Source of the DNA: a virus
Direction: 5' to 3' (one strand)
DNA length: 20,000 bases
Virus record (IMG/VR): IMGVR_UViG_3300020193_000167
Coordinates: 1-20,000 of that record
The stretch's first letter is position 1. Every line of letters begins with the position of its first letter. Position numbers and translations under genes: made by a program. Positions 1 through 19,142 of the stretch are shown here, in pieces. Under the pieces are notes generated by a model. The model saw only the letters and a list, made by a program, of their open reading frames with translations. It was not told the DNA's origin and did not search any database.

Positions 1-107
1 TAATTTTTCAATTATTGCAAACTTTTTGCGATTACATTCGTCTTATAGTATATCGTTCGATATTAAGGTTCTTGTACCCCAGGAAGTGGGGGAATTTTGG
101 GATTTTG
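1..107. other. Short non-coding stretch at window edge
   Basis: I see no convincing gene here. There is a 6-bp inverted repeat with a TT loop (ATATCG at 50-55, CGATAT at 58-63) and a GTATATC sequence at 48-54. The latter resembles the GTATATAT motif found in the divergent intergenic regions further along. A weak C4/G4 stem at 77-91 is followed by AATTTT on the plus strand. If the repeat copy at 113-180 is ignored, the broken HNH gene could read on through here in the minus direction for 26 codons to a stop near 35, but this is not decisive. Confidence 0.4.
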
Positions 108-180
108 TTTGTTATCTGGAAGCCGTCGCCATGACGATTCACGTTGCAAAGCGTGTCCAGACGCTACAGTATCTGGAAGT
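108..180 (+). repeat. 73-bp repeat, inverted copy (copy C)
   Basis: Every base of 108-180 matches the reverse complement of 380-452, so the two form a perfect 73-bp inverted repeat around a 199-bp spacer. The 38-base core shared with the third copy lies at 143-180. The first five bases (TTTGT, 108-112) correspond to HNH coding sequence flanking the other full copy. This hints that the inverted copy was made from the 380-452 copy with a little of its flank attached. Confidence 0.9.
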
Positions 181-429
181 TGCATGATAATGTGGTCCTG
201 TAGATGTCCACTTCACGTCATATCCTTTGAAATTTGCATGACCTCTGCACTTACTTTTATGTGCTTTGGAGTTATCTGAGAGTGACACTACTTCCAAGTT
301 ACCCTTGCAGTTATTGAGCTTGTTGCCATCTTTATGATGTACAGTCAAGCCTTCTAAATTTGCCCCTTTGAGCTTCATTACTTCCAGATACTGTAGCGTC
401 TGGACACGCTTTGCAACGTGAATCGTCAT
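139..429 (-). CDS. HNH endonuclease catalytic fragment
   Basis: This frame of 96 codons begins inside the 68-base repeat copy (first 17 residues, including VAKRVQTLQYLEV, are repeat-derived). It then continues as MKLKGANLEGLTVHHKDGNK and a following NLEVVSLSDNSKAH. The HHKDGNKLNN and NLEVVS segments match the HNH_3 family found in free-standing and intron-borne homing endonucleases: His-His with Asn, then the NLE helix. The last 14 or so residues are read through the inverted repeat copy (180-108) and are probably not native. ATG at 429 overlaps the TGA of the upstream fragment as ATGA. Confidence 0.5.
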   Translation of the reverse strand: MTIHVAKRVQTLQYLEVMKLKGANLEGLTVHHKDGNKLNNCKGNLEVVSLSDNSKAHKSKCRGHANFKGYDVKWTSTGPHYHATSRYCSVWTRFAT

Positions 430-452
430 GGCGACGGCTTCCAGATAACAAA
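380..452 (-). repeat. 73-bp repeat, direct copy inside HNH gene (copy B)
   Basis: This is a perfect inverted match of 108-180. The 68 bases 380-447 form the segment whose removal restores the HNH frame. The 10-base sequence CTTCCAGATA occurs at both ends (381-390 and 438-447) as a direct repeat 57 bases apart, so the element looks like 1.2 units of a 57-base tandem repeat. Small internal stems are visible, for example CCAGA with TCTGG at 384-403, and GCGT with ACGC. In the coding direction it introduces the TGA at 428-426. Confidence 0.85.
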
Positions 453-668
453 ACGGTGTAAAGAGTCCCTGTGACGCTCTCCATTCTCATTCCATTGAAG
501 ATAAACATAGCCGCTCTCGTCCAATCTGGCTCCTTTTCCCTCTAATTCTAGGGCATCCTCCATGTCCAGATGGGCAATTTTGCCGCCAACTTCCAGATAC
601 TGTAGCGTCTGGACACGCTTTGCAACCTTAACTGAGTTGGGCAAGCTACCTTGTGACAAACATGGCAT
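426..668 (-). CDS. HNH endonuclease N-terminal fragment
   Basis: This 80-codon frame contains the part of a small HNH endonuclease that precedes the catalytic motif: a beta-strand GYVYLQWNENGE and then SLHRFV. It then runs through the repeat copy (peptide IWKPSP) to a TGA at 428-426. Its first codons come from another frame read through the 38-base repeat (peptide VAKRVQTLQYLEV), so the ATG at 668 is probably not the ancestral start; it has no clear Shine-Dalgarno sequence. The TGA overlaps the ATG of the next fragment as ATGA, so re-initiation could give a two-piece protein. It could equally be debris of a broken gene. Confidence 0.45.
   Translation of the reverse strand: MPCLSQGSLPNSVKVAKRVQTLQYLEVGGKIAHLDMEDALELEGKGARLDESGYVYLQWNENGERHRDSLHRFVIWKPSP
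589..626 (-). repeat. 38-bp core copy of the same repeat (copy A)
   Basis: Bases 589-626 are identical to 380-417 and to the reverse complement of 143-180; similarity stops abruptly on both sides. It lacks the CGTCGCC-containing left part of the full copies. Removing exactly these 38 bases joins the frame starting at 706 to the frame carrying the HNH N-terminal part. It lies between a Cys-containing N-terminal segment and the rest of the HNH protein. Confidence 0.85.
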
Positions 669-705
669 TCTTTTGAAACAAGTAACATCGTTTTTTGTTG
701 TTGCA

Positions 706-1650
706 TCACAATTCTCTCAGCCACTCCATGAATTTAGCTTTATCGTACCCGTCTGCTTTTGACAAATTCTTTCCTCCAGGCAATGGTTGTAAGTTATCAA
801 GTCTGTTGATAACACGCAAGTCGAAAATATCATGGTCCAGAAATGCTTGCACGGGGAAAATATGGTCGATGTGATGAGGTTGTTGTCCGTATCCATTCGG
901 GTGATTCTCAATGTGGTCACGGAGTTCATCGGGAGTGTACCCGAGCAACTTCTGTGTTCGGTCGCCCTTGACACTGCCAGCAGCCTTGAGACACCGCTTT
1001 ACTATTCGCTCACATGCTTTACGCCAATATTTGTTAGACGCTATTTGTTCCCGGTCTGGATTCCACATATAGCAATTCGGGCCGGACTTCTTATTGATAC
1101 CGCATGTTCGGCAGTTAGGGTATCTTAGGAAGTTGCAATAGTAGGCTTCACCCTCTAGTCCGCATTTGCATAAAAACCTAATTCTCGTCTTGCCTTTGCT
1201 CATCCATGAAGATAAAAGCTGGCATCCATTCTCTTCGCAAGCCTGCTTAACATCAGCTTCCTCAGTACGATGGAATTCTGAGAGTTTTCTTTTTTTGCAC
1301 TCCTTACACAAGCTGCCAGCACGTAAATCAGCAAATCTGATTTTGCCGACTGTGCCACACTTACACTTATAGTCTAGTGGCTTGAAGAGATTGCTGTATT
1401 CGTTTGATAACAGTAGGCATCCAACTTCGTCAAATGCACGCTTCACTTCTTCATAAGAATGTTTGACATTTCCGGCGCAGAACTTACATCTTTGGCCTTT
1501 TTGAAAGTTATTCCAAGTTATAGCCGTCTGATGTCCTTGTTCACACTTACATCGCATGACGACCTGTGACCCGGCGTACTCCGATTCAAGTAACTCCCAT
1601 CCGTGCTTCTCAAACTCGCTTTTAACGTACTCGTAACTTAGTGCTTTCAT
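706..1650 (-). CDS. HNH endonuclease with three zinc-ribbon repeats
   Basis: A 314-residue protein. Three tandem modules of about 60 residues (1-60, 64-120, 130-185) each consist of a helical segment (YEYVKSEFEKHGWELL-like) followed by CxC and CxxC pairs: C34/C36 with C55/C58, C96/C98 with C115/C118, C161/C163 with C180/C183. These are probably DNA-reading zinc ribbons. An HNH nuclease domain follows: HHIDHIFP at 259-266, then NRLDNLQPLPGGKN at 282-295. This is the layout of a free-standing homing endonuclease. I chose ATG at 1650 because GGAG lies 7 bases upstream and because the longer frame to 1746 would run through the promoter and terminator. It stands directly downstream of the capsid operon terminator and its TGA overlaps the next HNH start. 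Confidence 0.85.
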   Translation of the reverse strand: MKALSYEYVKSEFEKHGWELLESEYAGSQVVMRCKCEQGHQTAITWNNFQKGQRCKFCAGNVKHSYEEVKRAFDEVGCLLLSNEYSNLFKPLDYKCKCGTVGKIRFADLRAGSLCKECKKRKLSEFHRTEEADVKQACEENGCQLLSSWMSKGKTRIRFLCKCGLEGEAYYCNFLRYPNCRTCGINKKSGPNCYMWNPDREQIASNKYWRKACERIVKRCLKAAGSVKGDRTQKLLGYTPDELRDHIENHPNGYGQQPHHIDHIFPVQAFLDHDIFDLRVINRLDNLQPLPGGKNLSKADGYDKAKFMEWLREL

Positions 1651-1668
1651 GATAAATCTCCATGAAGC
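1643..1668 (-). promoter_or_regulatory. Hairpin covering the HNH start codon
   Basis: In the minus-strand RNA, GCTTCATG (1668-1661) can pair with CATGAAAGC (1651-1643) with one bulged A. This puts the ATG of the 706-1650 gene in the stem and most of its GGAG in the loop. RNA started at the adjacent promoter (near 1663) would lack most of the left arm, while read-through RNA from the capsid operon would carry all of it. A parallel structure precedes the HNH gene at 9043. Confidence 0.45.
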
Positions 1669-1669
1669 T

Positions 1670-1697
1670 ATTATAGTATAGCAATGTCTAATTTCAA
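1670..1697 (-). promoter_or_regulatory. Sigma70-like promoter for HNH gene
   Basis: On the minus strand TTGAAA (1697-1692) and a perfect TATAAT (1675-1670) are separated by 16 bases. Transcription would start near 1663, about a dozen bases before the ATG at 1650. The promoter lies just past the terminator at 1711-1734, which gives the endonuclease gene its own expression unit. Seen by sequence match only. Confidence 0.6.
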
Positions 1698-1700
1698 ATA

Positions 1701-1734
1701 GAGAAAAAAGAAACCCGACATAGTTGTCGGGTTT
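1701..1734 (-). terminator. Rho-independent terminator of capsid operon
   Basis: A perfect 10-bp stem (AAACCCGACA at 1711-1720 with TGTCGGGTTT at 1725-1734) has a 4-base loop. Read on the minus strand it is followed by CTTTTTTC (1710-1703). It lies 17 bases after the major capsid stop codon, the expected place for the end of a heavily transcribed structural operon. Confidence 0.85.
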
Positions 1735-1750
1735 CCTATCCAACATAAAG

Positions 1751-3196
1751 TTAGATAATGAAATTAGCGATGCTCATGCGTGCGTAAAATTTTGCTCCTT
1801 CTCGCAAAAGTTTCTTGCCATAACGAGTCAAGATACCTTTACGTGGGCAGAAGCTTTCCGGGTCTAACACGACTGGAGTCTGTGTTAGTGGAACATATGG
1901 ACAGTAGAAGTAACCTGAGTCCATATAGCTATCACCCTTGTAACCAAGAAGTATCTGGTTCGATGGGAACAGCGGGTCTTTGTATAGTCTCCAACGGTTG
2001 TTAACAGTACCAACGTACTGAATACCAAGGGAGCTAGTGAAAGTCTCGCTAGGAGCCGGTGCGAAACCTGCGGTAGCGGTTTCAAAGATACTTGCAACTT
2101 CCGGGGAAGTTACTAGCCAGTTGCAACCACCACGAAGGGTCTTACGGTGAACTACGTTAGATAGTTCTACGACCTTGATGTACAAGGACTCGTACTTCTC
2201 CTTGATAGTTTCGCCAAGCGCCGTGTTGAAATCCCATGCCGCTACCGTACCAGCGTTGTTACGAAGGTCGGTCAAAACTTCACGGTCGATTTCCAAGTTG
2301 ATTTCCTGAGCCAACACTGCTGTTAGTTCAGCCTCAGCATCCAAGTTGTGCTGAGAACGAAGGTCTTGCTGAGCTTCGTAGGACCATACCGCCTTGAGCT
2401 TCCTAGTCTTAGCAGCGATTTCTTCGCTTTCTACGACCAAGTTAATCTCAGGCAAATCCTGGTTACATTCCATGTTATATTCATAGGACATAACTAGGTG
2501 GTTGGTGCCTGGTGCGCTAGTCCACGCTACCTGTACTAGACCTGTAGTGTAGTTAACGCTGGAGCCAGAAGTCTGACCCTTAGCAGTTAGACCGGATACT
2601 AGGTCGTTGAAGGTGAATACGCCTGCTGCCGAAACCGTGAAGGTCTGGATGGCGGTTGCACCTGCGAAGACCGTACCAGTGATGGTGCCAGGTAGGACCG
2701 GGGTATGCTCAAGAGGAGCATAGGTCGAGGTCGTGATAGCACCTGGGTCTGTGCTAGTGGTTTCGTTCTGTACGAACTGCGAAGAGTAGAAAATATCCAC
2801 GTTCGCAGTACCGTCAGCAAGCTGCTGCAATGTGTTAACATCATCGCCTGGGAAACCGGCGTTATTGTCTGCACCACGGCGTGCGCCCTTGTTACTTGAG
2901 TAACGGAAGCGCAGGTAGTACACCAACCCAGTTGGGCCAAGCAATGGCTGCACGCTAACAATCTTGTTAGCGATTAACTGGGGATAAATACGACGTACTA
3001 GCGGGATGCTAATACGCTTGAACTGAGCAATGTCACCAGTGTCGGTGCTTACTTCGTTCATCAATCTCTGGTTTTCCAGAAGGACCGCACAAGCCGAACG
3101 AACATATCGGTCGTCGAGGCCCTCTAGCAAGCCAGTCCTACTCCAACGAGTCTCTAATTCCCGAGCTTCGTTGAGAAATTTTGCATTTGCGTTCAT
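1751..3196 (-). CDS. Major capsid protein, T4 gp23-like
   Basis: This 481-residue protein is the main shell subunit. Recognisable gp23-family stretches are IYPQLIANKIVSVQPLLGPT (about 70-89), then KTRKLKAVWSYEAQQDLRSQ with the following DAEAELTAVLAQEI (263-299). A C-terminal part follows with NWLVTSPEVASIFETA, YVGTVNNRWRLYKDP, GYFYCPYVPL and LTRYGKKLL. Residues about 165-240 form an extra beta-rich, Gly/Thr-rich domain (VNYTTGLVQVAWTSAPG) absent from classical gp23 and probably surface-exposed. Possible prohead-protease sites of the L-x-E type (LNE at 8-10, LLE at 23-25 and 39-41) lie near the N-terminus. AAGGA stands about 12 bases before the ATG. It is the last gene of the protease-scaffold-capsid set, followed by a strong terminator. 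Confidence 0.93.
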   Translation of the reverse strand: MNANAKFLNEARELETRWSRTGLLEGLDDRYVRSACAVLLENQRLMNEVSTDTGDIAQFKRISIPLVRRIYPQLIANKIVSVQPLLGPTGLVYYLRFRYSSNKGARRGADNNAGFPGDDVNTLQQLADGTANVDIFYSSQFVQNETTSTDPGAITTSTYAPLEHTPVLPGTITGTVFAGATAIQTFTVSAAGVFTFNDLVSGLTAKGQTSGSSVNYTTGLVQVAWTSAPGTNHLVMSYEYNMECNQDLPEINLVVESEEIAAKTRKLKAVWSYEAQQDLRSQHNLDAEAELTAVLAQEINLEIDREVLTDLRNNAGTVAAWDFNTALGETIKEKYESLYIKVVELSNVVHRKTLRGGCNWLVTSPEVASIFETATAGFAPAPSETFTSSLGIQYVGTVNNRWRLYKDPLFPSNQILLGYKGDSYMDSGYFYCPYVPLTQTPVVLDPESFCPRKGILTRYGKKLLREGAKFYARMSIANFII

Positions 3197-3219
3197 CTAA
3201 AAAATTTCCTTGTTAAGAC

Positions 3220-4134
3220 TTACTTTTTGCTTTTGTTAGTACCAGCCAGAGTGTTCAGAACACCAAGGTCGATACCTTCTACTAGGGTTGATACATCAGT
3301 ATCATCCTCTTTGGCACTCTTGGTATCAGAGTTATGTTCCGTAATAACCCTAGTCTCTTCGACTACCGTGTGCCCTCTCCCCGATACATTCTTCGCTTTC
3401 TGCGCTCTTTCTTTCCTATCACTAGTACGTCCTTCTGAAAGGATGTTCTGTGTGTGACGAACGGCCTCGTTCAACTTCCTATTGTCATGGTCTAGCCTGA
3501 TGTTACGGGCCTCCATCATACGAAGGTCAGCCTGCATCTTCTCGATGTTGCGGTACGCCTCATCAAGCTTGCTGCTGGTTGCCAGGGCAACGTCTTCGTC
3601 AGACAAGTAGTTAGTAGTAATCTCAACGATTTTATCCAAAGCAACTTTGTGCTCTGCCATACGTGGGTCGTTAAGAACGTCACGCTTGGCCTGCTCGTAA
3701 ATTTCTGCGCCCTTGAACTGCAAGAATTGGTCTACCTTCTCAACGATGTGTTCCTTCATCTCGCTAAGACGCTTGTCGTACTCATCGTAAATCTCAGTTT
3801 CGAAGGTTCCGCTCTTGGCTCGTTCTGCAAGAAGCATCTGATATGCTTCCTCATAACCCTCTTCCAGGGTTGCTTCGAACTCTTCACGCTGAACCTCTAA
3901 CCGATTACGAAGGTCACTGATGATGCTGTAAGCCTCTTGATAACCCTGTTCGGCGGTCTTTTCGGCAGTAGCGAGTTCGCCAGATAGCTCCTTGTAAGCC
4001 TCCTCTAGCTTCTCATTGAACTCAGCTTCAATTTCTTGACGAGCTTCGTTCAACATTTCATCAACTGCCGAGGCGACTTCGTTTAGGTGTTCTGCCGGAA
4101 GAAGTTTCTTTAGTGCTTCTAAGATTTTGTCCAT
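3220..4134 (-). CDS. Prohead scaffolding core protein, gp22-like
   Basis: A 304-residue, highly charged, almost entirely helical protein, rich in Glu, Lys and Ala, with long heptad-like stretches (roughly 1-130 and 190-240). It sits between the prohead protease and the major capsid gene, the gp22 position in T4-like phages. There it would form the internal core around which the capsid assembles, later degraded by the protease. Many L-x-E tripeptides (LNE, LEE and ILE-type) are possible cleavage sites. The C-terminal 60 residues are polar and Ser/Thr/Asp-rich. ATG at 4134 lies one base after the stop of the protease gene (TAATATG), which suggests coupled translation. Sequence similarity of scaffolds is low, so the call rests on context and composition. 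Confidence 0.85.
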   Translation of the reverse strand: MDKILEALKKLLPAEHLNEVASAVDEMLNEARQEIEAEFNEKLEEAYKELSGELATAEKTAEQGYQEAYSIISDLRNRLEVQREEFEATLEEGYEEAYQMLLAERAKSGTFETEIYDEYDKRLSEMKEHIVEKVDQFLQFKGAEIYEQAKRDVLNDPRMAEHKVALDKIVEITTNYLSDEDVALATSSKLDEAYRNIEKMQADLRMMEARNIRLDHDNRKLNEAVRHTQNILSEGRTSDRKERAQKAKNVSGRGHTVVEETRVITEHNSDTKSAKEDDTDVSTLVEGIDLGVLNTLAGTNKSKK

Positions 4135-4135
4135 A

Positions 4136-4822
4136 TTAGCCTAACCTCGCTTTAAGTTTGCCTGTTTGTTGTTTAACAATACCACCCAGGGCGGCAATAA
4201 TAGCCTCTTTACTTAACGTATGTATGCTGCTGCTGTTATTTTTAACAGCAGAATAATGGCTCACACCATTAGCCGTGGGTATAACACTTTCTTTCTTGCT
4301 TCCGACCACTTTTTCTTGGAAGGCTGCGAACGTCGAAGGGTCGGCTACGGCGTCGAATGTAATAAGCTTGTAACTCTCGCCAATGACTAGAATTCCATTC
4401 TCATTAACCTTACCATTGCCAACGCCCCTACTAGAGATGCCTACTCGGACACCATCGTTAATCAGAGCCTTTAATACCTTGCCATGTGGCGTATTAAGGA
4501 TTTCTCCTTCGCCCATTAGAACATTACCATCCCACCATAGCTTCGTAATGACGTGAGAAGCGTCCCGGAAATGGATGATTGAATCAGTTGGGTGGTCCAA
4601 TTCACCAATTAGACCACGACCTTTAACTACTTCCATTAACCTTTGGACGTTCTCATCCAAAACAGTGAATGGATACATTCTTTTGTTTTTGTTTACTGCC
4701 TCGGCCTCTTGAAACTTACCCCTAAACTTGATTAGTCCTTTTTCAATGTTGGACTCTTTAAGGTCAAGCTCGAAGCTGGCATTATCACAACTGTCTATAA
4801 ACAGCATCAAATCGTTAGCCAT
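4136..4822 (-). CDS. Prohead core protease, gp21-like (S80 type)
   Basis: This 228-residue protein matches the T4 gp21/S80 serine protease type. It has an N-terminal strand region with NKNKRMYPFTVLDENVQRL (44-62), a catalytic-His segment GRGLIGELDHP (His77), a strand ending in HVITKLWWDGNVLMGEGEIL, and a catalytic-Ser segment VRVGISSRG (Ser130 or 131). The strand LITFDAVADPSTFAAF follows. The family cleaves scaffold and capsid proteins during prohead maturation and then itself. Residues after about 170 are polar and probably a removable tail. AAGGAG stands 5 bases before the ATG. The next genes are scaffold and capsid, as expected. Confidence 0.92.
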   Translation of the reverse strand: MANDLMLFIDSCDNASFELDLKESNIEKGLIKFRGKFQEAEAVNKNKRMYPFTVLDENVQRLMEVVKGRGLIGELDHPTDSIIHFRDASHVITKLWWDGNVLMGEGEILNTPHGKVLKALINDGVRVGISSRGVGNGKVNENGILVIGESYKLITFDAVADPSTFAAFQEKVVGSKKESVIPTANGVSHYSAVKNNSSSIHTLSKEAIIAALGGIVKQQTGKLKARLG

Positions 4823-4850
4823 TAAACTCCTTAGTGATTATGCGAATAAA

Positions 4851-4873
4851 CGGCCTGGGACCATCCCAGGCCG
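4851..4873 (-). terminator. Strong GC hairpin between head genes
   Basis: A perfect 10-bp stem (CGGCCTGGGA at 4851-4860 with TCCCAGGCCG at 4864-4873) has a 3-base loop. It lies between the stop of the 619-residue gene and the protease start. On the minus strand it is upstream of the protease gene: the 619-residue gene ends at 4888 and the hairpin follows it, then TTTATTCG. The T-run is short, so it may be a partial terminator or an RNA-processing hairpin that adjusts expression of the capsid set. Confidence 0.6.
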
Positions 4874-4887
4874 TGTTTCTAGCTTCG

Positions 4888-6747
4888 TTACTTGTCCTCA
4901 ATCAGGTTGTCGGACTTCATCTTGTAGTGACCTTTACGCCACGGCGATTCCTTGACATTCGGATTCTGTAGGGCTGGCCAGGTTTCGCTGGACTGCCAAC
5001 AGCTCCAGTCACTCTGTCCGTCATCTACAGCACTCTTCTCCTTCATCTTGTAATCGCCGAATGGCTTCAAGACGTTAGGATTGTCAAGTTCTGGCCATGT
5101 CTTGCCGGTGATGTTGCCCCAGCTACGGTGCTTCATCTCATCCTCAAGACCGCCACGATAGCTCTTGCCGTCGCTTACAGGTGTCTTGCCACCCCACTCG
5201 CCAGGGTGCTGGCTTGGGATACCTGGAACCTTAGCGTTCTTGGCCATCTGCGGGTGGTCGCCTGGGTATACGTCAGACGGGGTGTTGGAAACATTCCAGG
5301 TATCCGAAGAATACTGGACGTTAGCCTCTACCAACTGCTGCAACCAAGTAGCAACCTCACCAGCTAACTCCAAGGTAGGCTCACGCTCCTGCTGCAATAC
5401 TGCGTACAGTTCAGTCAAGAAACCGTTAGTCTCACCCTTGAGGGCTTCGTTGCCTTCCAGAACTGCAATCTTGTTGATTTCAACAAGTGCGTTATAGAGT
5501 TCGGCAAATACCTGCATCTCAATGTGGCTGCTCTCGTCTAGTTTCGGATAGAACTGGTGAACGATGTCCTGGAACGCTTCGTACACAGAGTCGTCCTTAG
5601 CAAGCTCAACGCCTGCTAGACTGATGATTCTCTTGACTCTCTCTGGGTAAGCTTCCGACGCTGTGCGTAGGATGCCTTCTGCCATGAACTGGCAAGCGTC
5701 ATCGTCAAAGTTAACTTCACCGATGGACGATAGAGCCTCAGCGATTTCGGACTGTAGTTCAGTCTGAGTTAGATACATTAGTTCTGGCCAGTGCTTGACA
5801 ACCTTTTCCATTGTTGTCTGAGTGGCGTCGTTGTCTGACAGTGCGTTGCACTTACGGAGGTCAGCCATTGCACGGCAGAAGTTGGTGTCCTCATGAACCT
5901 TCTTGACCTTGCCACGAAGGATTTCGAGGTCAGTCTTCATCGTCTTCCAGTTGAAAGTAAGCAACTTGTTCTCGTTGCGAACGTTCTTTACCGGGATGCG
6001 AACGGCAGTTACATTGCCCTTGTCGTCATGCTTGTAATCGCACTGATTCAAAACAGGCCCAAACTCCTGGTATTCCAAGTAGTTCAAGACATTTTCAGTT
6101 AGATTTGCCCACTCGTTGACCTTCTTGGCAGGTGCCTGCTTCTTGAAGCGGGTGTGAACATGGGTGCCCTTGCCGAACTGCTTCTTGAGGGCTGCACGAC
6201 GGTCTTTTGCCTGCTTCTTCTGCGAATCACTTAAAAGGCTCTGGCTCTTTTTCTTAGCCCGCACCCTTTTAGCAATCACGTCAGGAGTTTGCTTGCCACG
6301 CTTCTTAGGACTAGTCTTGCCAGCCTTCTTATCAACCCAGAAGTCAGGTGCCCCTTCCATCAAACTACGACGGACGGATGGCATCTTCATGTACTCTTCA
6401 AAAGCTGCATTAGCTTTGATGTCGTTGTTGTTTAGTAGTTCATTGACCATCGAATTCAGCAAATTACGTGACTGCGTTTTTGCTGTGGTGTCGTCAATAA
6501 CTAGTTCTTCAATGTTTTCAAGGATGATGTGCTTGTCTTGCATGCGATACGTTGCATGAATGAAAGTATTGTGGTCCGCTGTTTCATAAGTAACATCGGA
6601 TTCACCGAAACAATGGAGTGAGAGGTAGTCTACATCCAACGCTTTGGCTAGCACACCCTCGGCTTCGGTCAGTTCCGTTTCCGCCGCCGATAATGAGTCT
6701 TCTTTTATCTTCTTGAAGACATCATACTCAATAAGTTTTCTCTTCAT
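4888..6747 (-). CDS. Large head-region protein of unknown function
   Basis: I do not recognise this 619-residue protein. The N-terminal third is mixed, with a highly basic linker at about 140-215 (PKKRGK, RVRAKKK, KKQAKDRRAALKKQFGKG) that could bind DNA. The middle (220-480) is helical and acidic. The last 130 residues contain WP/NPNV repeats: GKTWPELDNPNVLKPFGDYK at 548-567 and SETWPALQNPNVKESPWRKG at 587-606, both followed by YKMK or a similar stretch. It occupies the place between portal and protease where T4-like phages carry small core proteins (67, 68), so a virion-internal or core role is possible, but this is inference from position. GGGAG precedes the ATG by 8 bases; the gene ends just before the hairpin at 4851-4873. 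Confidence 0.75.
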   Translation of the reverse strand: MKRKLIEYDVFKKIKEDSLSAAETELTEAEGVLAKALDVDYLSLHCFGESDVTYETADHNTFIHATYRMQDKHIILENIEELVIDDTTAKTQSRNLLNSMVNELLNNNDIKANAAFEEYMKMPSVRRSLMEGAPDFWVDKKAGKTSPKKRGKQTPDVIAKRVRAKKKSQSLLSDSQKKQAKDRRAALKKQFGKGTHVHTRFKKQAPAKKVNEWANLTENVLNYLEYQEFGPVLNQCDYKHDDKGNVTAVRIPVKNVRNENKLLTFNWKTMKTDLEILRGKVKKVHEDTNFCRAMADLRKCNALSDNDATQTTMEKVVKHWPELMYLTQTELQSEIAEALSSIGEVNFDDDACQFMAEGILRTASEAYPERVKRIISLAGVELAKDDSVYEAFQDIVHQFYPKLDESSHIEMQVFAELYNALVEINKIAVLEGNEALKGETNGFLTELYAVLQQEREPTLELAGEVATWLQQLVEANVQYSSDTWNVSNTPSDVYPGDHPQMAKNAKVPGIPSQHPGEWGGKTPVSDGKSYRGGLEDEMKHRSWGNITGKTWPELDNPNVLKPFGDYKMKEKSAVDDGQSDWSCWQSSETWPALQNPNVKESPWRKGHYKMKSDNLIEDK

Positions 6748-6784
6748 CTTTTGTCTCCCTATTAGGATACTGAGCCTGTAGCCC

Positions 6785-6792
6785 GTATATAT
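6785..6792. promoter_or_regulatory. GTATATAT motif in divergent junction
   Basis: This motif lies 38 bases upstream of the 619-residue gene and in the gap between divergent genes. The same eight bases occur in three other divergent junctions of the window (12816, 17444, 19056), suggesting a phage promoter element. The gap also holds a possible sigma70-like plus-strand promoter: TTAGTA at 6820-6825, then 16 bases, then TATTAT at 6842-6847. Confidence 0.35.
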
Positions 6793-6883
6793 GTTCCCAG
6801 TGACCCGTTTTAGAAAATGTTAGTAAAACTATACGGTTCCCTATTATATAAGTATGCAGAAGGAGCCAAAACTGGTTGTTAAA

Positions 6884-7231
6884 ATGAAAAGCTTTCATCA
6901 ATATCTATCGGAACGTGAACAGGCTAGCCCCGTTGGTTCTATGGGCATGGGACTAGGCGAAATCGAGACTCAATCGGGCGATGATTCACTAATGCGCATC
7001 GCTAAGATGGCCGTAGACGACCACCGCACCGACATCCTGAGCTTTTTCCAGCATTTGGCCAAGAAAGACGGCAGAATTGAACAAGAACTTAAAGACTATA
7101 ATAACGAAAGAAAGCACAGTGAACGTCCTAAGAATGGCAATAGTCCGCATGAAACTCCCGATGACAGAGACGAAGTTGTCCCTAGCTCGGCAGATTCAAC
7201 AGGCGGTGTGGAGGGAAGTGAAGGTGGTTAA
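6884..7231 (+). CDS. Small phage protein with MKSF-type N-terminus
   Basis: A 115-residue protein starting MKSFHQYLSEREQ. A short MK(S/T)F...(L/H) opening is common among small structural proteins of T4-like phages, and the gene at 15079-15516 begins similarly (MKTFLQFHNE). The middle (about 35-75) is helical (DSLMRIAKMAVDDHRTDILS); the last 45 residues are polar and disordered, ending in a Gly/Ser tail. An upstream in-frame ATG at 6854 is possible, but it has no Shine-Dalgarno sequence. AGAAGGAG lies just after that ATG, 18 bases before 6884, so the true start is unsettled. Function unknown. Confidence 0.6.
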   Translation: MKSFHQYLSEREQASPVGSMGMGLGEIETQSGDDSLMRIAKMAVDDHRTDILSFFQHLAKKDGRIEQELKDYNNERKHSERPKNGNSPHETPDDRDEVVPSSADSTGGVEGSEGG

Positions 7232-7442
7232 TCAATTCGCAGAAGAAATCAATCAAAGATACAGAAGTGATGGTGTTATCCATCCAGACCACCCCTGGTA
7301 CAAACACCAGCGAGGCGTTGGCGAAGCAAGAATTGAGCAATATCGTAAAATGGGTATGCTGGAAGGGATAGAGCCAGGTTCCTGGGAGGAAACCACCGTG
7401 GTTATCCTGATGGAGAACCAACGCACTATCTTGGAGTGCTAG
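7149..7442 (+). CDS. Small protein overlapping its neighbour by 80 bases
   Basis: A 97-residue frame reading MKLPMTETKLSLARQIQQAV at the start, then a helical stretch and a compact motif VIHPDHPWYKHQRGVGEARI, ending near ILEC. The amino-acid composition after 7161 looks like a real protein. Start candidates are 7149 and 7161 (MTETKLS), neither with a clear ribosome site. It overlaps the preceding gene by about 70-83 bases in the +1 frame, which is long for phage genes and leaves a frameshifted fusion as an alternative. Its 3' end overlaps the convergent glycosyltransferase gene by 17 bases. Function unknown. Confidence 0.55.
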   Translation: MKLPMTETKLSLARQIQQAVWREVKVVNQFAEEINQRYRSDGVIHPDHPWYKHQRGVGEARIEQYRKMGMLEGIEPGSWEETTVVILMENQRTILEC

Positions 7443-8676
7443 CCAATTCTAAATACCTGTCCGCAGTAATGTCCCAGTTGTTTCCCACGATATACTTGTC
7501 TGCTTTTTTCACCAAGTTGTTACGATAGTTTTCGTCACTAAACACCCTGTCTATTTCTTTGGCAAGCTCTAGGTGTCCATTTGGACGGGGTAATACCCCA
7601 TCCAGGTCATCAAACATATGTGAGTTACTGGCTATCACCGGGATGCCATTTGCCATCGCTACACGGATTGCACCCGACGCTCCATACACCATATTCTTCG
7701 GGTCATTGACATAAGGGAATAAGGCTATTTTGGCGGTTCTCAAATAATGGTTAATCGTTTGCTCAGTTTGGAACTTTCTAATGATAACGGCGTTGTCCCT
7801 CAGCCCCAATTTGTCAATTCTGTCCATGAGAGTGGAGTAGTATTGGGTGTGGATTACGCTAGTGTGTGCATTCTCACTGCAAAGATAGCAGTAAAAGATG
7901 CTCTCGAACTTCTTGTCGATGGTTTTAAGGTGATGGATTGCATCCAACACCCGGTCAACACCCTTGTAAAAAAACCCGAAGCCAAATTGTACTAAGGCGT
8001 AAGGCGTCTGGAAGATGTTCCACAACTCCTCCTTCTCCTCCTTGCCAATCTCCAGGCAACCATGAGGAATCACAAAGACCTCGCTATTGTTACCCACTCT
8101 CCTTAATGCTTCCTTGGCTTCTTTACTGTGAACGACAATACGCTTGGCCGCTGCCGAGCATATCGACTTGTCTAAGTGTTCGTAAACGGAGTGCATTGTT
8201 ACAACGTATGGGATGTCTTCAATGCTTTGAAGCATTTGCAGGAAGAAAGTAGCTTTCGGGAAAATCCCAAATTCATGTTGTACAATGATAAAGTCAGGGT
8301 TCCAGGCCAGGATTTGGTTGACGCACTCCTGCATGGACTTTCCCCGTTCCCAGCATCGGGACACGAAAGGTTCGTCGGGTTGGGTTGCAACCCCTTTCTC
8401 TGAGAAGATGCGTATTGCTTTGACTTTGGGTATTAAGGACTCTACCAAAAAACGTGAATACGTGCTGATGCCGCAGGCATCATTCCAATTACAGATTACG
8501 GCTATCTTCAAGTCTTTGGACGCTTTATGCTCTCCAGTAGACAGTTTTGTTCCAATTATCTTGTGCCACTCATCTCGGGGAACCGGGGGTATCTCTTTGA
8601 CGCAGTGGTTAGTAACAGAGAACGGTCGGTCTGAGACAGCCGTAACGATATTCTTATTGTTAACGGCAGCAAACAT
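7426..8676 (-). CDS. Family 4 glycosyltransferase (GT-B fold)
   Basis: A 416-residue protein. After a phage-specific leader of about 55 residues comes a Rossmann-like domain with the acceptor-side motif LKIAVICNWNDACGISTYSR (about 55-74). It continues with NPDFIIVQHEFGIF and IPYVVTMHSVYEH, then KRIVVHSKEAKEALRR and EVFVIPHGC. The donor-binding domain follows with YALVQFGFGFFYKGVDRVLD and GASGAIRVAMANGIPVIASN, typical of GT4 enzymes that transfer sugars from nucleotide-sugars. TAGGA stands 4 bases before the ATG and the gene begins 6 bases after the small gene 8683-8961, so they form an operon. The acceptor is unknown: virion protein, host envelope or DNA. Confidence 0.88.
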   Translation of the reverse strand: MFAAVNNKNIVTAVSDRPFSVTNHCVKEIPPVPRDEWHKIIGTKLSTGEHKASKDLKIAVICNWNDACGISTYSRFLVESLIPKVKAIRIFSEKGVATQPDEPFVSRCWERGKSMQECVNQILAWNPDFIIVQHEFGIFPKATFFLQMLQSIEDIPYVVTMHSVYEHLDKSICSAAAKRIVVHSKEAKEALRRVGNNSEVFVIPHGCLEIGKEEKEELWNIFQTPYALVQFGFGFFYKGVDRVLDAIHHLKTIDKKFESIFYCYLCSENAHTSVIHTQYYSTLMDRIDKLGLRDNAVIIRKFQTEQTINHYLRTAKIALFPYVNDPKNMVYGASGAIRVAMANGIPVIASNSHMFDDLDGVLPRPNGHLELAKEIDRVFSDENYRNNLVKKADKYIVGNNWDITADRYLELASTPR

Positions 8677-8682
8677 ATTTTC

Positions 8683-8961
8683 CTATGATTCACAGGCCCA
8701 CTGAATACATGCTGTGTTAGTCTTAATGTCTGCATGGATGACGAAGCCATTTTCCATAATCTTTACGCTGATTCTGTTGATGTCTCCGTGGCATACCGGG
8801 CAACCGTCGCAAGGGTCTTGTATGCTTAAAGCAATGTTAACCGGATGCTTTTCAATCGCTATCTTAATCTCATGAAGTCCATAGCCAAGCACAATATCGC
8901 CAGTGGATACTGACTTGTGGTGACTAGCACATTTGGTTCTTAGCCTTTTCAAGAAATCCAT
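8683..8961 (-). CDS. Small Cys-containing protein upstream of GT4
   Basis: A 92-residue protein I do not recognise by family. It has a basic N-terminus (MDFLKRLRTK), then alternating strand-like segments (IKIAIEKHPVNIALSIQ), a PCDGCPVCHGD motif (about 51-60) that could bind a metal, and a final strand pattern GFVIHADIKTNTACIQW. This looks like a small beta-sandwich. It has a very good ribosome site (AGGAGGAG directly before ATG) and is co-transcribed with the glycosyltransferase. A TATATAA sequence in the upstream gap may be its promoter. Confidence 0.7.
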   Translation of the reverse strand: MDFLKRLRTKCASHHKSVSTGDIVLGYGLHEIKIAIEKHPVNIALSIQDPCDGCPVCHGDINRISVKIMENGFVIHADIKTNTACIQWACES

Positions 8962-9005
8962 TTCTCCTCCTGGTTTATATAGTTAGATGCTTAGTTTTAT
9001 TTTTT

Positions 9006-9035
9006 CCTAAGAAACTTACTACAATAGTTTCTAGG
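9006..9035 (+). promoter_or_regulatory. Hairpin covering the ribosome site of HNH gene
   Basis: CCTAAGAAAC (9006-9015) can pair with GTTTCTAGG (9027-9035) with one bulged A and an 11-base loop. The right arm contains the first bases of the AGGAG (9033-9037) that serves the ATG at 9043. TACAAT at 9020-9025 in the loop could be a -10 element; RNA started from it (near 9032) would lack the left arm and be freely translated. Similar hairpins that silence read-through RNA are known for T4 homing endonucleases such as I-TevI. Confidence 0.5.
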
Positions 9036-9042
9036 AGAAATA

Positions 9043-9666
9043 ATGAACACTACTATCCAAAAAAGAATTGATGCTGGCCTTTGCACTCGATGTTGCGTGG
9101 CTGTCGATACTGGCAAACAAAAATGTGAGTCTTGTTTAGAAAAAGAAAGGAGTTATAACAAGAAATACTATAAAGAAAGAGGCAAGAAACAACCTGTCAA
9201 AGGTGAATGTGTAAATTGCAGTAGAAAAACTGATAGTATATATAAGTGTTGCAAAACTTGTCGGCGTCGTAGTAGGGATAGGCGTCGTGTTTTTAAGGAG
9301 GCTGGCTTTTGTTATGGATGCGGCACACATCGCACCAGCAACTCTCCTCTGTGTACAGTTTGTTACTTGAAAAGCAGAGCCATTTACCTGTGGGGATGTT
9401 CCGATAGATGGCAAGATTTAGAGTTGTTGTTTGAAAACCAAATGAACCGATGCCCTATTAGTGGACGTGTGCTGACTCTTGGTGTTGATTCGTCTATTGA
9501 CCACATTTCACCAAAAAGCAAAGGTGGTAGTAACGAATTGTCTAATTTACAATGGGTTCACAAAATGGTGCAAGGTCTAAAGCTAAATCATAGCAAGGAA
9601 GATTTGTTTGAATTAGCAAGAGACATTTGCTTGTGGAATAAGTTACTAGAACCAGAAAGCGTGTAA
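9043..9666 (+). CDS. Free-standing HNH endonuclease with zinc fingers
   Basis: A 207-residue protein. The first 110 residues hold three CxxC...CxxC groups (C14/C17 with C28/C31; C56/C59 with C70/C73; C90/C93 with C104/C107) separated by Lys/Arg-rich helices, likely DNA-binding. The C-terminal half is an HNH nuclease: RCPISGRVL (137-144), DHISPKSKGG with Asp153 and His154, SNLQWVHK (167-174), then LKLNHSK (179-185). It has a good ribosome site (AGGAG, 5 bases before ATG) placed in a hairpin. It lies on the plus strand among minus-strand genes, is visibly more AT-rich than its neighbours, and its 3' end runs 21 bases into the convergent gene. All of this fits a recently inserted homing endonuclease. 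Confidence 0.87.
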   Translation: MNTTIQKRIDAGLCTRCCVAVDTGKQKCESCLEKERSYNKKYYKERGKKQPVKGECVNCSRKTDSIYKCCKTCRRRSRDRRRVFKEAGFCYGCGTHRTSNSPLCTVCYLKSRAIYLWGCSDRWQDLELLFENQMNRCPISGRVLTLGVDSSIDHISPKSKGGSNELSNLQWVHKMVQGLKLNHSKEDLFELARDICLWNKLLEPESV

Positions 9667-9885
9667 CCGCTCCAAAAACTCTTTTGAAATGATACAATTT
9701 GGGCCGTCAGCAAGGACAGCATCTACTGAACAGTAGGGACATAATGCCGTATCTGAGTCATCCGTCCATTCTTTTATTTCGTCGGGAGAGAATTCTGCCA
9801 AGCAAGAGTAACATCCACAGTGGTCCGCAGCGACCACTGTGGAACGGTTACGGAAAGCAGCCTTAGCAGCATGTCTAATTTCCAT
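9646..9885 (-). CDS. Small CxxC/CPYC 'cytoplasmic protein' family
   Basis: A 79-residue protein with the pattern CGCYSCLAEFSPDEIKEWTD, then TALCPYCSVDAVL, ending in a helix that finishes HAFWF. I recall this layout (Cys pair, EF...EI..W.D, TALCPYC..D.V, C-terminal WF) from small bacterial proteins annotated only as cytoplasmic or hypothetical. The two Cys pairs probably bind zinc. ATG at 9885 has GGAG 7 bases before it, better than the upstream start at 9951 in the same frame. It begins 10 bases after the 84-residue gene behind the portal. Its 3' end is overlapped by the HNH gene. Function unknown. Confidence 0.7.
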   Translation of the reverse strand: MEIRHAAKAAFRNRSTVVAADHCGCYSCLAEFSPDEIKEWTDDSDTALCPYCSVDAVLADGPNCIISKEFLERLHAFWF

Positions 9886-9895
9886 TGTATCTCCG

Positions 9896-10150
9896 TTAAA
9901 TTGGCCCAAAAGGCGGAAAGGCTTGACCATAAGGATGGCCACTAGTATCACGGGTATTCTTCATGCCCAAGAATTCTTCCTTGCATCTTTCATAACTTTC
10001 TGAGTCGCCATTGCCGTGCATGAGCCAAAAAGTCCTGAATGATGCGTTCGGATTCTGTGATTGGAACTTGTGCAAAATCCTTAGTATAGGAAATCGTTTA
10101 TAGTCAAGGTTGTACGAATGCTCACGCAACCAACTGGCGAAAGTCATCAT
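9896..10150 (-). CDS. Small protein coupled to portal
   Basis: An 84-residue protein of unknown family (MMTFASWLREHSYNLDYKRF, ending FPPFGPI). It is rich in aromatic and charged residues with no membrane segment. Its ATG overlaps the TGA of the portal gene (GAATGATGAC), so translation is coupled to portal synthesis; a second ATG three bases on is an equal candidate. Position suggests a virion or assembly accessory protein, but nothing in the sequence proves it. Confidence 0.65.
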   Translation of the reverse strand: MMTFASWLREHSYNLDYKRFPILRILHKFQSQNPNASFRTFWLMHGNGDSESYERCKEEFLGMKNTRDTSGHPYGQAFPPFGPI

Positions 10151-12705
10151 TCAGCCTCCGAGAAGTCCGGGTTCTCCTCATCCATTTCCCTTTCATAGTC
10201 GAGGATTTCAAGGTCGTACTTTACAATATCCTCTTCTGTCGGTTCAGGCAATGGCTCTGCTTGTCCTGACGGTGGCATCATGCCAGGCTCATCACCCCCT
10301 TGTTCTGGTGGTGGCATTGGTGGCATTCCTGGCGGTGCCGCTCCTCCTGGAGCGGGCGGTGCGCCTGGGGGTCCACCTGGCGGTGTGCCTCCTGGTGCCA
10401 TCATTGGATTCGGTCCACCTGGCTCTGTACCCATTTCTTGCTCGCCCTGGCCTGGTATACCAACGCCTAGCAACTGCGGGTTCTGGGCTAGTACCTGGAG
10501 CTTCAAGTCCTCAAGTTTCTGAATCTTCATACGGGCTATCATCTCGTTAGCCTCGTCTTCTGTGTAATTCATCCACTTGGTTAGTACGTCGAAGTCGGAC
10601 ATCAACTGACTGCCCTTCAAGCCGTTAGCATTGTTGATTCTGTTAGTGACAACTTCCGCACGACTGAGTTCTCTCCAGTCAGACGGAGGCGTCATCTTAA
10701 TCTTCAAGTCTTCGTAGTTCTCTTCCGGGAAACCACGCAACTTCAAGTGTCTATCAGCTATGTGCCACAACCCGTCTTCGATGTAAGACTGGAGCCTTTC
10801 GATGAGGCGGGCGAACTTAACGTCCTGAGCCGAAAGCGTGATACGGGTTGCGTTCGGGTCTTCCGTGGAAAAGTAAGACTTCGGGAAGTTCAAAGCGGTA
10901 AAGAGCTTGTTGCGGAAGTAGACGGTATCGTCAATTTCGCCCAAGTTCTCAGCACCCGGTAATGTTTCAATGCGGGTGTTACTGTTGGGCTTGATTGGAA
11001 CCCAATAGTCTTCGTCCTGAGCCGGTGGGTGCCATCTTTCGTCAACTGCACTAGCACCCTGACCGCCTCTGGCTGTTACAACCTTCTTCTTACGGAACTG
11101 GTCCTTGAGACGCTCCATGAACGCTTCTGCTTTGAACGGCGGTAGTTGCGCCACGTCGATGTAGAAGACACGTCGCTCTGGTGCCCGTGTTAGTCGGTAC
11201 ACAACCATAGCGTCTTCCATCATACGCAACTGATGGGCTGGACCCCTAGCTGGTTCTATAAGGCTGATGCCATAAGGATAGAACGTCTTGCGGTCGTCAC
11301 CAATTCGTATGTGAATGATGGCTTCCGGTGCGAAGCGAATAGCCGTAGCCATACGCAGTTCTTCGTCGGATGCCTGAGTAATAGGTGCCCTTTGTAGCGA
11401 TTGGAAGTCTGGACCTTCTTTGCCTTGCTGGAACTCGATGAGCTTGGACTTGGTAGTCTCGATTCGGTACATGCTTTCTGGCGGTAACTCCCGGATGGCG
11501 TAAATGCCTTCCTTGGGGTTCTCCGGGTTTATGATAAGTTCTCCAAACCAGTCACCGTTCACGAACGTCTTTTTGGCTAAATTCCACACGAAACGCTGGC
11601 CCATGTTCAGCATGTTACGGTGGAAGAATAGGAACTCTAGCTCCTCTAGTACCTCTTTGTTCTCACAGGTAATCTTGAAGACACGGCCATGTTCGTCCCG
11701 CTGGCAGTTGTGCATGACCAGGGAGCGAGTGCAGAAGCACTGGTGCTTGTCAACCGACAGGTCGTACACATCAACTTCTTTACCGGGCACAACGGCTAGA
11801 ACTCTACGGTACTCCGATTTCTTAGCAAGATAACGAATCTCCTTGGCACTAAAGCCCTCCCGCATCAGGGTGTGGTTGATGGTCATGTGGGCATGGTCCA
11901 TCGCCTTCGCCACCTTGCCGATTGTTAGGTCTTTCGCTATCATGCGAGCCGCTTTGTTCACTCGCTCATACTTGGGAATATCCTTGCCGCCACGCCACTC
12001 GTCAATGAATTGTCGCTCATGAATCCACCCCTTTTTATGGGTAAAGATGCGAGGGTATTGTTTTGTCTTGAGGTTTGTTAGTCCCTGTTTCGCTTTCAGG
12101 CGGTAGAAAGGCATAAGCTCACTACCCGTTTTTAACTCACGGGCTTCTTTCCATGTTCCGTCCCGCAACATAATACGGTGGTCGGCGGTGATGGTTTCTA
12201 TCTCACCGTTGTCGAGGTAAAGCTGGATGGTCTTTTCTTTCTTCACTACCCTTGGGTCGTAGGCCCACCCGATGGTGTAGTCCCCTTTTTCGGCGTCGTA
12301 GCAGTAAATAGGAAAACGCTCTCCCGCTTTATTCTTAGCGAGCCATTCGATAGTTACATAACCGTGGTACAGGGTGGCAATTTCGGTAGAGCCTGCAACG
12401 CAGGCTTCGTCGGCGAAGACGGTCATCGCCATTTCGATTTCGGCGACACCTTGTAGTAAGCGGAAGTATTCTTTATAACGTGCCTGTCGATTGGTCGTCG
12501 TTGACAGGTCAATCATGTCATTCGTTTGACGCAGGTTGATGAAACCCCCGCCCGAAGCTGAGAAAACGTCTGCATTGCGAATGTCTGGAATAGCGTCGGG
12601 CTGGGTAGTTCCAGCACCGTCTAGCTTGCGAATGTCAACCTTTTTCGCTAGCGGGTCTTGCGTAAACGCATAAGTCCAGATTTTGTAAAAATCGTACCAG
12701 GCCAT
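10147..12705 (-). CDS. Portal vertex protein, gp20-like, with intein
   Basis: An 852-residue precursor; after intein removal the portal would be 620 residues. N-extein (1-101): MAWYDFYKIWTYAFTQDPLA, RQARYKEYFRLLQGVAEIEM, ending FADEA. C-extein from Cys334: RDEHGRVFKI, the helical VLEELEFLFFHRNMLNMGQR and VWNLAKKTFVNGDWFGELII, then EDAMVVYRLTRAPERRVFYI, PKSYFSTEDPNATRITLSAQ and DVKFARLIERLQSYIEDGLW, typical of T4-type portals. The portal dodecamer forms the DNA entry channel and binds the terminase. A long Pro/Gly/Met-rich tail (about 735-815) precedes an acidic end. AAAAGGA stands 5 bases before the ATG. The next gene overlaps its stop. Confidence 0.93.
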   Translation of the reverse strand: MAWYDFYKIWTYAFTQDPLAKKVDIRKLDGAGTTQPDAIPDIRNADVFSASGGGFINLRQTNDMIDLSTTTNRQARYKEYFRLLQGVAEIEMAMTVFADEACVAGSTEIATLYHGYVTIEWLAKNKAGERFPIYCYDAEKGDYTIGWAYDPRVVKKEKTIQLYLDNGEIETITADHRIMLRDGTWKEARELKTGSELMPFYRLKAKQGLTNLKTKQYPRIFTHKKGWIHERQFIDEWRGGKDIPKYERVNKAARMIAKDLTIGKVAKAMDHAHMTINHTLMREGFSAKEIRYLAKKSEYRRVLAVVPGKEVDVYDLSVDKHQCFCTRSLVMHNCQRDEHGRVFKITCENKEVLEELEFLFFHRNMLNMGQRFVWNLAKKTFVNGDWFGELIINPENPKEGIYAIRELPPESMYRIETTKSKLIEFQQGKEGPDFQSLQRAPITQASDEELRMATAIRFAPEAIIHIRIGDDRKTFYPYGISLIEPARGPAHQLRMMEDAMVVYRLTRAPERRVFYIDVAQLPPFKAEAFMERLKDQFRKKKVVTARGGQGASAVDERWHPPAQDEDYWVPIKPNSNTRIETLPGAENLGEIDDTVYFRNKLFTALNFPKSYFSTEDPNATRITLSAQDVKFARLIERLQSYIEDGLWHIADRHLKLRGFPEENYEDLKIKMTPPSDWRELSRAEVVTNRINNANGLKGSQLMSDFDVLTKWMNYTEDEANEMIARMKIQKLEDLKLQVLAQNPQLLGVGIPGQGEQEMGTEPGGPNPMMAPGGTPPGGPPGAPPAPGGAAPPGMPPMPPPEQGGDEPGMMPPSGQAEPLPEPTEEDIVKYDLEILDYEREMDEENPDFSEAE
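11707..12402 (-). other. Intein in portal (232 residues, HTH insert)
   Basis: Residues 102-333 of the precursor. The N-terminal splicing block starts at Cys102 (CVAGSTEI). Block B is TITADHRIMLRDGTWKEARE (171-190), with the T-x-x-H pattern at TADH. The C-terminal blocks are VDVYDLSVDK (311-320) and HQCFCTRSLVMHN, ending His332-Asn333 before Cys334 of the host protein. All residues needed for splicing are present. No LAGLIDADG or complete HNH motif is visible. The insert at about 220-300 instead carries a helix-turn-helix-like stretch LTIGKVAKAMDHAHMTINHT (260-279). It may be a mini-intein with a leftover DNA-binding part of a lost homing domain. Confidence 0.88.
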
Positions 12706-12721
12706 AGATTCCTTTTCTAAT

Positions 12722-12737
12722 TAACTACTTGTAGTTA
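12722..12737. promoter_or_regulatory. Perfect 7-bp inverted repeat upstream of portal
   Basis: TAACTAC and GTAGTTA flank a TT in the gap between the divergent portal and sulfotransferase-like genes, 17 bases before the portal ATG. It could be an operator or an RNA hairpin in the portal leader. The portal and terminase leaders also share AATTAGAAA followed by an AGGA-type ribosome site. Confidence 0.35.
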
Positions 12738-12815
12738 TTAACTTACTCCTTTTTTTCACTATATTAGAAGAGGGTTACAGACCAAGTAATACATTCTTTG
12801 AAAGTCTTCATTTGG

Positions 12816-12823
12816 GTATATAT
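12816..12823. promoter_or_regulatory. GTATATAT motif in divergent junction
   Basis: The motif abuts, and its end overlaps, the ATG of the plus-strand gene at 12822. It could be a promoter element only for the portal side (111 bases upstream), or the plus-strand gene may start elsewhere. See the shared-motif finding. Confidence 0.25.
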
Positions 12824-13394
12824 GCGAAAAATTCTGTTTGTTGTTAGTCACCTTGGTTCCGACAGTGCTTCTTTGTGTGACATCTTGGGAGCTAATCCCC
12901 AAGTTCAGTTCTACAACACCAAGGCCATCTATGACCGCATGGAGATAGGTCTTTCGTTAGTTGCCAAACCCCATAAATGCGACAAAAAAGCGGCGATATG
13001 GGCTGATGAGCTACTTTCAAACCATCGTTTGTGCCACAAATGTTTCTACAAGTGGGCGCAGTTCGTCTACGTCATCAAGGACGCCCGGCACAGCTTGAAC
13101 ACTATGCGGCCTAGCGATGCGAAAACGGCAGACATTAACTTTCGATACTACTGTTACCGGCTCAGGAGAATATGTGAGATGGCCAGGAAGACACCCGGAG
13201 CGGTGCTATTGACCAATTTGACCAATCTCAAGCTGGTGGAGGAGTATTTGAAGTTACAGGAACCGTTAGGGGCGGCGATGATTAGTCCTGCGGCAGAACC
13301 CTGTAAATTGGTGACTCCTGAGCATATCCGCAAGGGGCAGGAGTCATTTGAAAGGCACTTCTACTATCTGCGCAACCTGGATTTGGTACGATAG
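12822..13394 (+). CDS. Sulfotransferase-like P-loop protein
   Basis: A 190-residue protein. The N-terminus MRKILFVVSHLGSDSASLCD followed by ILGANPQVQ resembles the strand-loop-helix of sulfotransferases, where GSGTS-type loops bind the 5'-phosphosulfate of PAPS and the next motif is L..hP.v. The stretch FVYVIKDARHSLNTM (about 87-101) resembles the 3'-phosphate-binding motif (v.R.P.d...S), with Lys in place of the usual Arg. It is shorter than typical sulfotransferases (250-300 residues), so activity is uncertain. ATG at 12822 is preferred over a TTG at 12798; neither has a clear ribosome site. The GT9-like gene starts 7 bases after its stop, so the two probably act together on a glycan. Confidence 0.55.
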   Translation: MRKILFVVSHLGSDSASLCDILGANPQVQFYNTKAIYDRMEIGLSLVAKPHKCDKKAAIWADELLSNHRLCHKCFYKWAQFVYVIKDARHSLNTMRPSDAKTADINFRYYCYRLRRICEMARKTPGAVLLTNLTNLKLVEEYLKLQEPLGAAMISPAAEPCKLVTPEHIRKGQESFERHFYYLRNLDLVR

Positions 13395-13401
13395 ATAGGG
13401 T

Positions 13402-14668: not shown

Positions 14669-14670
14669 GT

Positions 14671-15027: not shown

Positions 15028-15078
15028 TCTTCCTCTATCATAGTGTTATCCGATTCTATAATGAAATATGAACGCTCA

Positions 15079-15516: not shown

Positions 15517-15530
15517 GGTTGTATTTACGT

Positions 15531-17414: not shown

Positions 17415-17443
17415 GTGTTAAGGTTACTCCTTTCTAATTGAAG

Positions 17444-17453
17444 GTATATATAC
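17444..17453. promoter_or_regulatory. Palindromic GTATATATAC centred in divergent junction
   Basis: This perfect 10-base palindrome stands exactly 30 bases before the terminase ATG (17414) on one side and 30 bases before the plus-strand ATG (17483) on the other. The placement suits a bidirectional -10-type element. Confidence 0.45.
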
Positions 17454-17482
17454 AAAGTTAATAATTTTTCAATGAGGTAGCT

Positions 17483-17680: not shown

Positions 17681-17746
17681 CAAACCAGTTATTTTCTTGT
17701 AACCTGGCTTCTGGCGTTGAAAATATCAAACCTGGAGGAGTTACAA

Positions 17747-18479: not shown

Positions 18480-18493
18480 AGCTCTCATTATAG

Positions 18494-19051: not shown

Positions 19052-19055
19052 AACA

Positions 19056-19064: not shown

Positions 19065-19142
19065 GTATGTGCTTCAAAGAATTATCAATAGCGATGGAAC
19101 TCGTAACATGACTCCTTCTGCATAAATAAGCCAGGAGGAACT

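Follow-up and report, generated by a model that had tools for sequence, protein, structure and literature searches.

CRISPR repeats are normally confined to arrays, which grow by the addition of spacers. In type V-M systems the effector Cas12m matures its pre-crRNA itself, by processing inside the repeat that does not depend on RuvC, and protects by binding rather than cutting, variants that have the D-E-D triad included (PMC11013384). Cas12m2 requires 5'-TTN-3' as its PAM (PMC10442227), and Cas12m is known in plasmids and some prophages (PMC11656645). A related logic operates in the IS200/IS605 elements, where the guide of TnpB preserves a record of where the element inserted and is directed at copies of that site still unoccupied (PMC11870625). 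Finally, solitary CRISPR repeats of viruses are known as RNA anti-CRISPRs (Racrs) and as parts of mini-arrays, in both cases mimicking the repeats of the host (PMC10651486, PMC11656645).

The phage system that we describe shares features with each of these. With type V-M CRISPR-Cas it has in common an effector with RuvC and TNB domains, a 36-nt repeat with a conserved 3' stem, an array right after the effector gene and TTN beside the protospacer position; unlike in type V-M, most of its repeats lie singly outside the array, and genes of the phage itself stand where the spacers would be. As in IS200/IS605-TnpB, insertion is directly 3' of a TAM/PAM and the guide would come from the right flank (here by anatomy only). 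However, no Y1 transposase TnpA was seen in the four contigs of the incomplete genome, what is inserted is a CRISPR repeat unit 43-89 nt long, most copies come without an effector gene, and published Cas12m binds rather than cuts. Racrs and viral mini-arrays are likewise lone CRISPR repeats in phage genomes, but those match a system of the host and have been sought between genes, whereas here the lineage has its own effector, an array and many copies, mostly inside genes at PAM sites. In this case the repeat has moved to the target and entered it at the PAM, repeatedly and probably within a single phage genome. In the literature that we searched, with few subscription papers covered, genome-wide insertion of CRISPR repeats at PAMs was not described. 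If confirmed, this would join CRISPR to the logic of TnpB (guide from the flank, PAM as insertion site), represent a guide-making route without Cas1-Cas2, and provide a concrete, testable case of phage-phage competition via Cas12m.

Repeat units in an HNH endonuclease gene

The window, a stretch of 20,000 nucleotides (positions 1 to 20,000 of IMG/VR record IMGVR_UViG_3300020193_000167), contains an HNH endonuclease gene interrupted by three units, W1 to W3 (Table 1). The initial annotation had reported a 38-nt core at 143-180 (+), 380-417 (-) and 589-626 (-), and all three copies are present and 100% identical. The first two lie within a perfect 73-nt inverted repeat (108-180/380-452). Its proposal of an element inserted three times in a single HNH gene, with exact removal restoring the frame, also holds: when the flanks are joined without the units, one open frame results, which matches HNH_3 at 8e-7 and PHROG 59 (HNH) at 3.2e-14, as against 1.4e-9 for the best unjoined fragment.

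The extents of the inserts had to be redrawn. The one nearest the start codon had been given as 38 bases; here the restoration of the frame stands and the length does not, since identity extends past the core to a unit of about 89 nt, and as 38 and 89 are both 2 mod 3 the frame is restored by the removal of either. This composite unit, W3, consists of about 31 nt of a cas12m gene (647-677), 22 nt of a 37-nt CRISPR spacer (626-647) and the repeat; 61 nt of it are identical to units in two other contigs (G001/G002) and 31 nt to the cas12m gene described below, and across its excision the frame joins MLLV to GGKIAH. For the middle insert, W2, the proposed 68 bases keep the frame with 381-448, although the spacing seen in the family would permit 65 too. 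The suggested comparison with HNH relatives leaves the same latitude: homologues span the junction and fit 68 or 65 nt, that is, with one codon's uncertainty, and with either length the protospacer is preceded on its left by a TTN triplet (TTG or TTA). W2 is identical to the 68-nt unit of G001. The inverted copy, W1, is also real, but its 38-nt core extends to a full 68-nt unit, itself inside the HNH frame.

Table 1. Repeat units, interrupted genes and the Cas12m locus. R, full repeat; units end in R and vary on the left
Feature	Contig	Position	Strand	Remarks
Interrupted HNH endonuclease gene	window	32..706	-	start ATG at 706, stop near 32-34 with the three units ignored
Unit W1, 68 nt	window	112..179	+	opposite orientation to W2; full repeat 144-179; flanks: left TTTG (TTN), right TTGCATG
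Unit W2, 68 nt	window	381..448	-	repeat tail, 21-nt spacer, full repeat 381-416; flanks: left TTTTG (TTN), right TAATGAAG
Unit W3, composite, about 89 nt	window	about 590..678	-	cas12m piece, spacer piece, full repeat 590-625; flanks: left ACTTG (TTN), right TTGGCGG
43-nt unit, TTAGGAG+R	G003			intergenic
46-nt unit, TTATGAGGAG+R				EndoIII-like gene, LAGLIDADG gene, one intergenic site
68-nt unit, TTATCTGGAAG+21 nt+R	window; window; G001	112-179; 381-448; 7763-7830		
73-nt unit				TTATCTGGAAG+21 nt+R type with longer repeat tail
89-nt unit, TTACAGTATCTGGAAG+37 nt+R				SIMPL gene
Intergenic copies	G002; G003	8716-8761; 24139-24181		
Locus C	G001	about 8087-8203		gene sequence beside unit apparently lost
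Locus H1	G002	about 12035-12178		gene sequence beside unit apparently lost; carries last cas12m codons
cas12m gene, 591-aa protein	G001	12506-14281	-	PADLOC, PDB and Pfam matches
CRISPR array	G001	12457-12259	-	directly downstream of cas12m, same strand; four repeats starting at 12457, 12415, 12342 and 12294, the last degenerate

The search beyond the window that had been proposed in the initial annotation was productive: exact matches to a 27-mer of the core are confined, outside the window's own record, to three IMG/VR contigs, and a 20-mer gives the same set. These are 3300020193_001248 (G001), 3300020200_000159 (G002) and 3300020193_000024 (G003), with 8, 12 and 1 copies, respectively, at up to 3 mismatches; the identifiers 3300020193 and 3300020200 we take to be Lake Tanganyika water samples. 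Isolate phages and plasmids gave no meaningful match to the repeat, and none of 84,980 GTDB species genomes contains a 25-mer taken from the core. A chance origin of the repeat is excluded because of the recurrence in three viral contigs and the absence from the GTDB genomes. After removal of redundancy there are 17 repeats, of which 4 form one array; the other 13 are dispersed and occupy 12 loci, making at least 12 outside the array, mostly within genes.

G001 and G002 overlap for 12,416 bases at 99.99%; therefore, the same insertions were assembled from two metagenomes. This bears on an artefact of assembly or library preparation, which might be invoked because the data are metagenome contigs throughout and the copies are identical. 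Two samples sharing insertions over 12.4 kb at that identity, flanks that continue one gene, and a strict TTN rule (see below) make such an artefact highly improbable.

The four contigs are probably pieces of one huge-phage genome, judging by collinearity and composition rather than by a single contig. Most of their proteins match the 595-kb uncultured phage LR756511 in collinear blocks, with a few single genes matching elsewhere: G002 corresponds to 364-388 kb, the overlapping G001 to 378-391 kb, G003 mainly to 464-505 kb and the window to 523-540 kb of that genome, and the major capsid protein of the window is 80% identical to its counterpart there. Tetranucleotide correlations among the contigs (0.85-0.93) are as high as that of one half of G003 with the other (0.84). 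The genome of the repeat-bearing phage may exceed 500 kb, of which the 122 kb of contigs would be a fraction. The repeat is missing from LR756511, even with 9 mismatches allowed, and a search with Cas12m gave no match there.

A Cas12m locus with the same repeat

G001 encodes a 591-aa protein that matches the PADLOC Cas12u1 model (8e-73), the Cas12m structure PDB 23vw (4e-44 over residues 32-558) and the Pfam TNB domain (2.8e-11). The RuvC residues D, E and D apparently are all present, as in the homologues from virus Rctr197k and Allomeiothermus. The adjoining array has irregular spacers of 6, 37 and 12 nt between its four repeats, the last degenerate, and for the 37-nt spacer IMG/VR contains no target other than in G001 and G002. 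No close relatives of this Cas12m were found in viral contigs or GTDB genomes beyond the source contig. The cassette (G001 about 12259-14360) is bounded at both ends by a 10-base direct repeat, ACAGAGGTAT, adjoining TTT, which is possibly a target duplication.

In virus Rctr197k, Methylomonas pLM6 and Pelobacter pPRO1, the homologous gene is likewise followed at a short distance by repeats of 36 nt. When these are aligned with the present repeat, the six pairs of the 3' stem are intact in 4/4 V-M-type repeats, with 5/6 pairs changed on both sides; sliding the partner by 1-3 columns left at most 46% of the cells paired (four sequences compared). The interpretation of the scattered 36-nt sequence as a V-M-type CRISPR repeat is well supported by these comparisons, and a Cas12m CRISPR locus with that repeat is probably carried by the phage itself. 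Every compared repeat ends two bases past the 3' stem, which is the exact right edge of the inserts, and therefore the bases that follow each insert occupy the position of a spacer. Virus Rctr197k (KX853510) provides a parallel: it encodes a Cas12m homologue of 27% identity, in a gene recorded as a misc_feature rather than a CDS, and an annotated CRISPR array whose repeat is related comes after it. Its array, unlike that of G001, is long and regular, and a search of its 197 kb allowing up to 8 mismatches gave no solitary copies. That virus has another annotated CRISPR array (KX853510 119281-119535), which lies beside a gene for a transposase-like protein.

The solitary repeats could also be viewed as Racrs, decoys directed against a V-M system of the bacterial host, given that solitary repeat units in phages work in this way for several CRISPR types (PMC10651486). 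We regard this as very unlikely: the lineage has its own Cas12m and an array with the same repeat, the copies sit in genes at PAM sites, many per genome, and the GTDB genomes lack the 25-mer.

Unit types and the TTN edge

Beyond the HNH gene, units interrupt other genes as well. EndoIII-like homologues (from two other contigs and LR756511) cross the junction without a gap, taking the 46 bases as inserted after TTC; the LAGLIDADG frame is continuous once its unit is removed; and the SIMPL domain, once joined, is continuous over the junction (PF04402, 5.8e-15, profile positions 127-205). The SIMPL gene had been considered as the source of the 37-nt spacer, which is ruled out as the joined frame shows the whole unit to be inserted. 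For gene C (MRKLFRFKYEPC...), which apparently carries a deletion, isolate phages provided no homologue. Units within genes mostly read in the direction of the gene, W1 being the exception.

Skipping of the inserts at the RNA or ribosome level was also suggested in the initial annotation; the genes would then still work, and the restoration of frames upon removal speaks for it. The comparison of sites does not support this reading. The units come in at least five lengths (43, 46, 68, 73 and 89 nt), two copies are intergenic, W1 is inverted relative to its gene, and two loci apparently lack some flanking gene sequence, a set of properties unlike those of a splice or bypass signal. Skipped inserts are consequently among the least credible of the readings. 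Introns, byp elements and T4 gene 60 are ruled out as models by the unit lengths, the inverted copy and the intergenic copies, the last two being points of difference from the byp and gene 60 bypass in particular. Simple gene death, the plain alternative, is a real consequence at the inserted sites but leaves the pattern unexplained.

The pattern concerns the left edge. TTN directly precedes the unit on its left at 9/9 sites (binomial p about 2e-10), counting units whose left edge can be read directly and with TT making up 6-9% of dinucleotides in the sequences used; no other upstream offset rises above 5/9. With two atypical sites, the composite W3 (TTG) and the cas12m cassette (TTT), the count becomes 11/11. 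The left edges were set by the prefix common to the units, which starts TTA, and moving the edge past TTA still leaves TTN. Insertion of the repeats next to a PAM, as defined by the published Cas12m2, appears well supported on this evidence. Because the unit stands directly 3' of TTN, the PAM gives way to the repeat, and the spacer slot is filled by sequence of the phage's own gene; AAG, from the repeat, is at the PAM position of the occupied loci.

Proposed guides from interrupted genes

The explanation that we favor, and judge somewhat more likely than not, is that the inserts are V-M CRISPR units of a huge phage placed at TTN, which would turn its own genes into guides against relatives. 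Transcripts through the broken genes would be cut by Cas12m at the repeat to give crRNAs whose guide would be the sequence of the broken gene itself. Cas12m with such crRNAs would then bind and block alleles of sibling or rival phages that lack the insert and are flanked by TTN, and the phage's own copies would be spared, their PAM being gone. A guide function for the dispersed repeats is plausible. When the four contigs and LR756511 were searched with the 20-base guides of the dispersed loci, allowing up to 3 mismatches, no second match with a PAM emerged, and the sole other matches in this search belong to array spacers and run into repeats. An empty allele of the same genes in another strain was not found, those of LR756511 being too diverged to match the guides. 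Insertions that break the phage's own genes must carry some cost, and this counts against the explanation, as do the irregular spacers of the array.

A rival explanation is a bare insertion element, in which an unknown transposase carries short, array-derived units to TTN, with no guide function and with decay of the genes. Its attractions are that sites otherwise unrelated carry defined units sharing one left end, that the genes hit are broken, and that TTN adjacency is expected from an IS200/IS605-like insertion rule. However, the sequence that moves is a conserved crRNA scaffold, needless for a bare element, which would equally require neither a right edge at the spacer start nor a target motif equal to the Cas12m PAM, and no transposase was found in the four contigs. 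On balance we judge it unlikely, though it deserves serious attention. The earlier notion of a tiny mobile element without its own gene is correct as to a tiny inserted element, but the repeat belongs to a Cas12m CRISPR locus. As to the mode of movement, transposition of defined units is suggested by left ends that are identical from one unrelated site to another, and the pieces of array and cas12m on the left sides of units, together with the lost flanks, argue for copying from the array. A Y1 transposase (PF01797), a reverse transcriptase and Cas1 were all absent from the four contigs, about 122 kb of an incomplete genome.

More tentatively, and with no better prospects than the bare insertion element, the system might be an RNA-guided gene drive in a huge phage, with CRISPR repeats as the moving part: insertion at a PAM would make the adjoining sequence a guide against all unoccupied alleles, and guide-directed binding or cutting would help the repeat to spread into them.

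Several features of these genomes lie apart from the units. The EndoIII-like gene of LR756511 (about 383,400) naturally has TATCTGGAAGTT, which equals the end of the repeat with TT added, a short way upstream of the position where the related contig carries a unit; this may be due to chance. Further HNH-type endonuclease genes occur in the window at 706-1746 (-) and 9043-9666 (+), near the capsid, portal and terminase genes, the second having relatives in LR756511 and G003. A single open frame in G003 (41111-42859, +), read by eye, fuses an HNH-like segment to an aminotransferase-like protein. The portal protein gene of the window contains an intein-like segment of 232 aa (11707-12402, -), which starts CVAGS and ends HN before C; the LR756511 portal aligns nearly full length, this segment included, and so the relative probably has it too.
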